Below are positions 54,567-56,175 of a stretch of 64,000 nt of DNA, one piece after another. The notes beneath the pieces are model-generated. The model was not told the DNA's origin and ran no database searches. It saw only the letters and a list, made by a program, of their open reading frames with translations. The translations under genes and the position numbers were made by a program. Origin of the DNA: Natronococcus sp. AD-5 (GTDB taxonomy: Archaea > Halobacteriota > Halobacteria > Halobacteriales > Natrialbaceae); contig NZ_CP132294.1 in the NCBI RefSeq assembly GCF_030734285.1, positions 3,410,001-3,474,000 of the forward strand. The letters run 5' to 3'. The first letter of the stretch is position 1. Every line of letters starts with the position of its first letter.

Positions 54567-55145
54567 TCAGAACGTTGCGTCGACGCTACCGTTCTCGTCG
54601 AGGTCGATGACCCCGTCGAACAGCGTCCGGAACTCGTCGACGAGCGACTCGTCGTGCGGGTCCTCCGAGAGGTGGAACAGCCCGACCGCCTCGTGCTCCT
54701 CGAGCAGCGAGAGGATCCGTTCGGCGGCTTCTAGCGCTCGTTCCTCGCCGGCGTAGTAGGCGAGTTCGGTGACCGAGTCGAAGCTGATCCGGAGTTTGCC
54801 GTCGTGGTCGGCGAGGAAGCCGTCGATGTGGTCGACGATGCCGTCGACATCGTCCGGGGCGGCGACGTAGTGGACGGTGTCGCTCGAACGTCGCGAGTAG
54901 CCCCGTTCGATGGAAAGCGTGTCGAGAATCTCGGCGCGGTTCTCGTCGACGTCGTAGTACTCGAGTTTCTGCCTGACCTCGCGAGCGGTCGTCCGGGTGG
55001 AGACGACGAGAAAGTTGTCGGTGTCGGTCTTGAGGAAATCGGTGTCGATGCGGTCCGTCTCGCCGGTGCTCGGGTGAAGCAAGAGAATCCCGGTCCCCCC
55101 AGGAACCGTCTCGGGCGTCCCTTCGATTGCCAGCTCGTACTCCAT
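54567..55145 (-). CDS. RecA/KaiC-fold protein without Walker A
   Basis: This 192-residue protein follows the KaiC/RadA-like pattern used by haloarchaeal regulators: LKTDTDNFLVVSTRTTAREV, GKLRISFDSVTELAYYAGEE, ILSLLEEHEAVGLFHLSEDP and FDGVIDLDENG. In place of the Walker A loop it has VPGGTGILLLHPSTGETDR, with no GKT/S. So ATP binding is probably lost. It is divergent from the methyltransferase gene, with tandem DtxR-like operators in between. Confidence 0.72.
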   Translation of the reverse strand: MEYELAIEGTPETVPGGTGILLLHPSTGETDRIDTDFLKTDTDNFLVVSTRTTAREVRQKLEYYDVDENRAEILDTLSIERGYSRRSSDTVHYVAAPDDVDGIVDHIDGFLADHDGKLRISFDSVTELAYYAGEERALEAAERILSLLEEHEAVGLFHLSEDPHDESLVDEFRTLFDGVIDLDENGSVDATF

Positions 55146-55320
55146 ATGGCGTGATCAAATTTCGGAACCGACTTAATACTGCGGATCTCTCCATCGGGCG
55201 CGCACGCGGCGTCGGTCGTCGCGCGTTCGCGATCTCGATTCCGATTATCTCCGCGAAAAAAGGGGTGAGAGGCCGATATCGATCCTCTTGCTGGCTCGCC
55301 GGCCATCCGATGCCCACGGA

Positions 55321-55370
55321 TTTCGGCCAACCTAAACCTCTCCGGACGAATCTTTTTAGGCCAGCCTAAA
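55321..55370. promoter_or_regulatory. Tandem DtxR/IdeR-like operators
   Basis: TTTAGGCCAGCCTAAA (55355-55370) is a perfect 7+2+7 palindrome. TTTCGGCCAACCTAAA (55321-55336) is a near copy with two changes. The TTAGG...CCTAA shape is that of DtxR-family metal-dependent repressors. They lie in the 349-bp gap between the RecA-like gene (minus) and the methyltransferase (plus); the rest of this gap shows no gene. Confidence 0.65.
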
Positions 55371-55494
55371 GAATCTGTCGGTAAGCGCTCCGAGCCGGGA
55401 CGCGGTTTCCGTTCGACGTGACGGACCGGGCCGCCGTCCTACCGCTGCCGCTCGAGTCGAACCGGTTTTGACGCTCTGGACTGATATGTCCCTT

Positions 55495-56175
55495 ATGAGC
55501 GTTCGCGAGGAGTTCGACGACTGGGCCGCGAGCGGCAAGGACAGGGGAATGGAGGAGCGCCACTGGCACACCGCCAAGCACGCGCTCGCGCGAATGCCCG
55601 TCGAACCGGGCGACACCGTCCTCGATCTGGGCTGCGGCAGCGGCTACGCCGGCCGCGCGCTCCGAGATACGAAGGACGCGGGCCGGATCTACGGACTCGA
55701 CGGCTCGCCGGAGATGGCCCGCAACGCCGCGGACTACACGGACGACGGCCGGGTCGGCTACGTCGTCGGCGACTTCGGTTCGCTCCCGTTCGCCGACGAC
55801 TCGATCGATCACGTTTGGAGCATGGAGGCGTTCTACTACGCCGCCGATCCGCACGAGACGCTCGAGGAAATCGCCCGCGTGCTCCGTCCCGGCGGCACGT
55901 TCTACTGCGCCGTTAACTACTACGAGGAGAATACCCACTCCCACGAGTGGCAGGAGTTCATCTCGATCGAGATGACCCGCTGGGATCGCGACCGGTACCG
56001 CGATGCCTTCCGGGAAGCGGGGCTGTACGTCGCCGAACAGGATAACATCCCGGACCGCGAGATCACGATCCCCGGCGAGGCCGAGTTCCCGCTCGAGGAC
56101 TGGGACACCCGCGAGGCGATGGTCGAACGCTACCGGGAGTACGGCACTCTCCTGACGGTCGGCGTAGCCCCTTGA
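55495..56175 (+). CDS. Class I SAM-dependent methyltransferase
   Basis: This 226-residue protein has motif I VLDLGCGSGYAGRAL, an acidic post-I loop (IYGLDGSPEMARNA), motif IV-like FADDSIDHVWSMEAFYYA and the LEEIARVLRPGGTFYCAVNY segment of UbiE-like enzymes. The ATG at 55495 is preferred over ones at 55486 and 55468. The substrate is unknown. The upstream metal-type operators suggest possible regulation by iron or manganese. Confidence 0.87.
   Translation: MSVREEFDDWAASGKDRGMEERHWHTAKHALARMPVEPGDTVLDLGCGSGYAGRALRDTKDAGRIYGLDGSPEMARNAADYTDDGRVGYVVGDFGSLPFADDSIDHVWSMEAFYYAADPHETLEEIARVLRPGGTFYCAVNYYEENTHSHEWQEFISIEMTRWDRDRYRDAFREAGLYVAEQDNIPDREITIPGEAEFPLEDWDTREAMVERYREYGTLLTVGVAP

Follow-up and report, generated by a model that had tools for sequence, protein, structure and literature searches.

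Operators between a methyltransferase gene and a DUF7090 gene

The window, that is the whole stretch of 64,000 nucleotides of Natronococcus sp. AD-5 analysed here, contains two 16-bp inverted repeats, which we call operator 1 (TTTCGGCCAACCTAAA) and operator 2 (TTTAGGCCAGCCTAAA). They are flanked on the right by a rightward gene for an S-adenosylmethionine (SAM) methyltransferase and on the left by a leftward gene for a DUF7090 protein (Table 1). The initial annotation had taken them for tandem operators of a metal-dependent repressor and had placed them in front of the methyltransferase as a possible new metal-regulated gene. We propose, with good confidence, that they instead control, in response to iron, a gene for a small non-coding RNA, which would be transcribed leftwards.

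Table 1. Positions of the operators, the predicted RNA and the neighbouring genes in the window
Feature	Position	Strand	Basis
Operator 2, perfect 7-bp arms; overlaps the RNA promoter's putative TATA region	55355..55370	.	exact in 80/81 RNA loci, 1 mismatch in the remaining one
Operator 1, copy with TTTCGG; overlaps the RNA in its 5' part	55321..55336	.	≤1 mismatch in 38/38 FbpA-type loci; ≥2 in 32/43 DUF7090-type loci
BRE-like element ACCGACAGATTC, immediately before operator 2 read leftwards (putative function)	55371..55382	-	consensus of 74 loci
Predicted small structured RNA, ~88 nt (putative start and end)	~55256..55343	-	model R1 match 55351-55246 minus, 80.2 bits, E 8e-22
P1 helix, 5' strand GAGAGG	55337..55342	-	pairs with 55272-55267; all 6 pairs changed on both sides
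P1 helix, 3' strand CCUCUC	55267..55272	-	model R1 alignment, covariation
P2 tip CCG-UGGGCAU-CGG, near-invariant loop	55307..55319	-	alignments
U6 tract, putative archaeal terminator	55256..55261	-	sequence
DUF7090 gene, next downstream of the RNA, same strand	54567..55145	-	PF23365 6.7e-105; 48-451 nt from RNA match end across loci
Methyltransferase's own promoter element CGAACCGGTTTTG	55458..55470	+	same position in orthologues with or without operators
SAM methyltransferase gene	55495..56175	+	Methyltransf_11 1.9e-24; PDB 6f5z_A E 3e-118

The description of operator 2 as a perfect palindrome holds for its two 7-bp arms and not for its centre, CA, which is not symmetrical. Operator 1, as had been noted, lies 34 bp away and differs at two positions from the 16-mer TTTAGGNNNNCCTAAA. 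With up to 3 mismatches allowed, the 64-kb window contained no further match except operator 2 on the opposite strand, and the number of operators observed (0.04 expected by shuffling) was reached in none of 100 shuffles. The repeats have the TTAGG/CCTAA-type arms of a DtxR/IdeR-type operator, which presumably resemble the bacterial DtxR/IdeR consensus.

Scanning the whole genome (5.17 Mb, 2 contigs) for TTTAGGNNNNCCTAAA gave 10 exact sites and 5 with one mismatch; at up to 2 mismatches the enrichment was gone, with 32 matches against 95 for a reversed control. Eight of the 10 exact sites were located at ATP-binding cassette (ABC) transport or siderophore-type iron loci: an ABC_tran+TOBE_2 ATPase gene is preceded by one (L037), a cluster that combines an ABC permease with a protein matching solved ferric-iron binding proteins (E 1e-59; L040) contains three, and four occur at a locus with Peripla_BP_2, ABC_tran, FecCD and diaminobutyrate transaminase (L041). 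Another is found together with an AT-rich TATA and has a large PAS/kinase-like gene on one side and a small acidic one on the other (L039 5000-5015; contig C1 2639460), neighbours that were named by eye and none of which is a known iron gene. The remaining one is operator 2 of the window itself. As judged by inspection, the operator of most iron genes in this genome follows an AT-rich TATA and precedes the start codon, which is the geometry of repression. Furthermore, the genome encodes a DtxR-family protein with Fe_dep_repress (DNA-binding), Fe_dep_repr_C (metal-binding) and FeoA domains, a candidate for the repressor. Because exact copies adjoin iron-uptake loci and such a repressor is encoded, the best reading of the sites, and a well supported one, is that they are DtxR-type operators repressed by iron. 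The metal-repressor nature suggested by the initial annotation was thus strengthened, exact copies preceding a FecCD/Peripla_BP_2/ABC operon, an FbpA-like protein and an ABC ATPase; the opposite outcome, a genome whose other copies are remote from metal genes, was not what we found.

A predicted, conserved structured RNA linked to operator 2

Conservation extended well past the two operators, leftwards, into a block whose minus strand can fold into a closing helix P1 (GAGAGG/CCUCUC), a long P2 hairpin tipped by CCG-UGGGCAU-CGG, and a P3 hairpin of smaller size. When 18 sequences were aligned by MAFFT with no reference to structure, 85.5% of the cells paired, as compared with 36-50% for slid structures, and the covariation score of 0.207 (0.166 ± 0.012 in shuffled alignments) was reached by none of 500 shuffles. 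Model R1 was built from the 18-sequence alignment (seed A1: 18 of 29 sequences; L068 was dropped from one early RNA alignment) and excludes the operator. Among 84 aligned matches (83 distinct rows), covariation amounted to 0.317, versus 0.188 ± 0.007 after shuffling (0 of 500) and at most 0.090 for slid structures, and 21 of 23 pairs showed compensatory changes on both sides. This larger alignment was fitted to the structure and is therefore biased towards it, whereas the MAFFT alignment is not.

In the window's genome, R1 gave one convincing match (E 6e-20; the next best, 3.5). Of the 125 genomes of the family, 96 had a match (E ≤0.1), and so did 22 of 29 genera; the loci inspected below are a part of these 96 genomes, 86 sources having been searched. 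In an evenly drawn sample of the class, 77 of 391 genomes had a match (E ≤0.01), 76 of which belonged to the same family. The match outside it (G049) was without operator or shared neighbours and was attributed to chance. Rfam 15 contained no match, the three sub-threshold ones between positions 54900 and 55700 of the window being all far under the gathering scores; the RNA is not previously listed and has no Rfam family. A small open reading frame in the block was considered and rejected. ATGCCCACG (+) and GTGGGCATC (-) are start-like, with no conserved frame, because single-base indels break the plus-strand frame and the lengths read from GTG scatter between 4 and at least 100 codons in 74 loci.

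The structure and the operator come as a unit. Of the 83 R1 matches checked, 80 were preceded by an exact operator at a distance of 0-8 nt, and one more by an operator with a single mismatch. Two matches (L173 and L175), without the operator and without all three neighbouring genes, were treated as chance; excluding these and an antisense second match of L132 left 81 accepted RNA loci. The distance from the operator to the first base of P1 was 9-13 nt in 80 of these loci and 17 nt in the other (12 ± 1 nt; standard deviation 0.92 nt), as opposed to a standard deviation of 51 nt for the distance between methyltransferase and operator. Methyltransferase orthologues were sought in 61 genomes and their upstream DNA was inspected at 57 loci: the operator was present at all 28 that had the RNA (27 exact, one mismatch in L071) and at 2 of the 29 that did not. 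Since the spacing is fixed and the operator lies outside the model, the operator belongs to the RNA. From these alignments, we consider it highly probable that a structured RNA with its own operator exists.

The near-invariant apical loop UGGGCAU was found as an expression in 74 of the 81 loci, on which the counts of reading frames, loop positions and the transcription factor B recognition element (BRE)-like element rest. The core consensus of this last element was C 0.97, G 0.96, A 0.88 and A 0.96. If the RNA starts at P1, TTTAGG falls at about -27, and TTTAG also stands at the TATA position of some methyltransferase promoters; for these reasons operator 2 would overlap the putative TATA box of the RNA. 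A metal-repressor operator in the putative promoter and a conserved RNA structure, two of the features expected of an RNA of the RyhB/MrsI kind (see below), are thus both found at this locus. The promoter-like element at its fixed place and the U-tract at the 3' end are indirect signs of a discrete small transcript.

As to the strand, G-U cells exceeded A-C cells on the leftward reading, 189 versus 93 overall and 70 versus 16 in P1 (82 rows, the antisense row of L132 included). Rightward transcription is disfavoured by this excess and by the BRE-like element and the U-tract, which fit the leftward direction. A T-run is also found at operator 2 on the plus strand, and no conserved rightward promoter was seen in the flanks inspected.

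Neighbouring genes and other readings of the block

The next gene downstream of the RNA was that of an FbpA-type ferric-iron transporter in 38 of the 81 loci and that of DUF7090 in 43. In many relatives the left gene encodes a twin-arginine translocation (Tat)-signal lipoprotein rather than DUF7090; it matches solved ferric-iron binding proteins (E 1e-61), and in two loci followed further it is succeeded by an ABC permease gene and then by DUF7090. We considered whether fbpA might have the RNA as its structured, cis-acting 5' leader (riboswitch-like or an attenuator), left as a relic where fbpA has been lost. Where FbpA is present, it is directly downstream on the same strand, and the RNA match often stops some 40 nt short of the aligned part of FbpA, as a leader might. 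Yet, fbpA has its own operator, a third one, between its TATA and the ATG beside it. Structure, loop and exact operator persist in the 43 loci where DUF7090 comes next, at a variable distance, and U-tracts follow P1 in many of them (a run of at least 4 T in 17 of 42 such loci inspected, by manual count). The constant association with one downstream gene that would be expected of a leader is therefore not observed, and we regard this explanation as improbable.

At the window locus, the FbpA-type gene is missing, and the RNA and its operator are retained. The window's genome is without the FbpA/permease pair here, and GATTCCGATTATC, to the left of the RNA, resembles by inspection the promoter of that pair and looks like a surviving remnant. 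Both the FbpA and the DUF7090 state coexist within each of the genera g1, g4, g7 and g26 (genera matched to the loci), which suggests that the transporter may have been lost several times and the RNA kept each time.

The fate of operator 1 differed. It lies within the putatively transcribed stretch, its right half contributing to P2. Every one of the 38 FbpA-type loci has it with at most one mismatch, as against 11 of the 43 DUF7090-type loci. The tandem pair thus goes with the transporter arrangement, and operator 2 alone accompanies the RNA. Cooperative binding to the pair, as had been supposed, is not required, since 32 of the 43 loci without FbpA have lost the imperfect copy and the perfect copy stays.

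Some relatives (L062, L068 and L071, exact; L073, one mismatch) have a further operator about 1.3-1.5 kb upstream of the methyltransferase, beyond the start of the FbpA-type gene, which possibly precedes the permease. DUF7090 (RecA/HTR-like) also adjoins the methyltransferase in several genomes outside the family; for this reason the iron operon and the RNA appear to have been inserted between the two genes.

Of the rightward genes, that of the methyltransferase lies closest, and the family preserves this arrangement, as would suit its control by the operators as a new metal-regulated gene. At least one exact operator was found within 450 bp upstream at 30 of the 57 methyltransferase loci (reversed pattern, 0 of 57); sorted by hand, all 30 were among the 37 loci that belong to the window's own family, and none was among the 20 loci from elsewhere, where the orthologues do without operators. 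However, a promoter-like element, CGAACCnGTTTTG, is located about 37 nt before the ATG regardless of operator presence, being found also in operator-free loci (e.g. L057, L063, L072, L074, L080, L083 and L085). The operators lie upstream of this element, 54-253 nt from the ATG, and so vary in position by about 200 nt, in contrast to their fixed spacing to the RNA. The enzyme (226 amino acids, class I SAM) has as its closest solved relative PDB 6f5z_A, likewise a methyltransferase, with nothing iron-related about it; we take this to be Haloferax Hvo_0019, the partner of Trm112. We therefore reject the methyltransferase as the target and consider its control by the operators quite unlikely, which corrects a plausible but wrong assignment. 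The RNA and its operator are independent of both neighbouring genes.

Finally, the block might be nothing but DNA bound by proteins (tandem DtxR sites and an extra dyad, the apparent RNA structure being a trace of DNA dyads). This would agree with the dyad nature of the operators and the nearly invariant P2 tip, but it is very improbable, as a DNA-binding site would preserve bases and not pairing, whereas the bases that pair in P1, some 65 nt from each other, show compensatory changes and the G-U over A-C excess given above.

Proposed circuit and known counterparts

We propose that, when iron is replete, a DtxR-family repressor would sit on operator 2, over the putative TATA (about -27 to -12), and prevent synthesis of the RNA. 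Under iron shortage it would be released, and transcription would proceed leftwards, away from the methyltransferase, to produce an RNA of about 88 nt. This RNA would fold into the closing helix P1, the long P2 with its UGGGCAU loop and, usually, the smaller P3, and would end in the U-tract. It is likely that the RNA is iron-repressed and transcribed in this way. Its most likely mode of action would be in trans on mRNAs through the P2 loop, like RyhB and MrsI; to base pairing in trans we give, by analogy, slightly less than an even chance. UGGGCAU is complementary to AUGCCCA, and the loop might for this reason pair over start codons of leaderless haloarchaeal mRNAs. The RNA would then be a counterpart of RyhB in archaea, a DtxR-controlled, iron-sparing, trans-acting RNA, an extension of the analogy that we put forward as speculative and rather doubtful. 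If true, loop pairing over the AUG would be the equivalent of the blocking of ribosome-binding sites by bacterial iron RNAs.

Several observations weigh against parts of this proposal. The 11-base complement of the tip (CGATGCCCACG) was searched for in 5 genomes, shorter seeds being avoided because chance matches would swamp the result; only the RNA gene itself was shared between genomes, and no common target emerged. Folding energies were only modestly low on both strands and failed to pick the strand (mean z -1.22 leftwards and -1.53 rightwards, the leftward strand being better in 32 of 81 loci). Unconstrained folds displayed P1 in 40 of 81 loci, the outer part of P2 in 51 of 81, the P2 tip in 67 of 80 and P3 in 21 of 75. 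In the window copy, P3 has diverged and does not form the consensus pairing, and the best fold closes P1 differently (z -1.10, 26 of 200 shuffles being as stable). Two loci (L061 and L068) have the operator without a recognisable RNA. Furthermore, typical iron genes of this genome have an AT-rich TATA just before the operator and the RNA does not, so that its promoter would be unusual, unlike those of the iron protein genes.

In bacteria, RyhB and other Fur-controlled iron-sparing RNAs are repressed by a metal-loaded repressor and made when iron is short. The logic proposed here is alike, whereas the domain of life, the repressor family and the structure differ. To our knowledge, no DtxR operator is associated with sRNA132 or s479. 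These two small RNAs of Haloferax volcanii are reported to be linked to phosphate (sRNA132; PMC6560208) and to zinc transport (s479; PMC8155600). Likened by description, they are also haloarchaeal and nutrient- or metal-linked, but belong to another genus and to other nutrients. The nearest known logic is that of MrsI (ncRv11846) of Mycobacterium, which is described as an RNA of about 100 nt, expressed upon iron starvation, with a box for IdeR, a DtxR-family protein, in its promoter (PMC8628891). MrsI shares with the RNA described here the small size and the DtxR-family operator in the promoter; it is bacterial and has known targets, whereas the haloarchaeal RNA has its own structure and loop. 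As to a sequence relation, the comparison covered the Rfam search, which gave no match near threshold.

The known DtxR-family iron regulators of haloarchaea include Idr1/Idr2, SirR and TroR, according to the excerpt consulted of one report, and their regulon involves the same regulator class and transporter class as the present locus; that excerpt mentions no small RNA target (PMC11349517). In Haloferax mediterranei, a DtxR-family gene is described as changing together with siderophore genes (PMC11218638). No archaeal small RNA under a metal or iron repressor was found in the literature searched, represented partly by excerpts, the main TroR and Leyn-Rodionov papers lying outside its coverage.

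By analogy, the RNA is probably the haloarchaeal equivalent of the bacterial iron-sparing RNAs. Bacteria spare iron via small RNAs under an iron repressor, and this RNA allows a direct test of whether archaea have the same kind of circuit, as there are a sequence and a structure to work from, a defined promoter-operator and a candidate for the repressor, and as strains that have the adjacent transporter occur in nature alongside strains that lack it.

Two further operator arrangements were noted elsewhere in the genome. Between the FecCD operon and the diaminobutyrate transaminase gene there is another tandem pair, two exact operators at a distance of 35 bp (L041 7887-7937; contig C1 3645886-3645936); its left member precedes the start of the permease by about 370 bp, and a further short transcript may start there. 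Two weaker operators, 26 bp apart, are found between ferritin-like and macro-domain genes (L038 5000-5041; contig C1 847263-847304), and the macro-domain protein may be under iron control.
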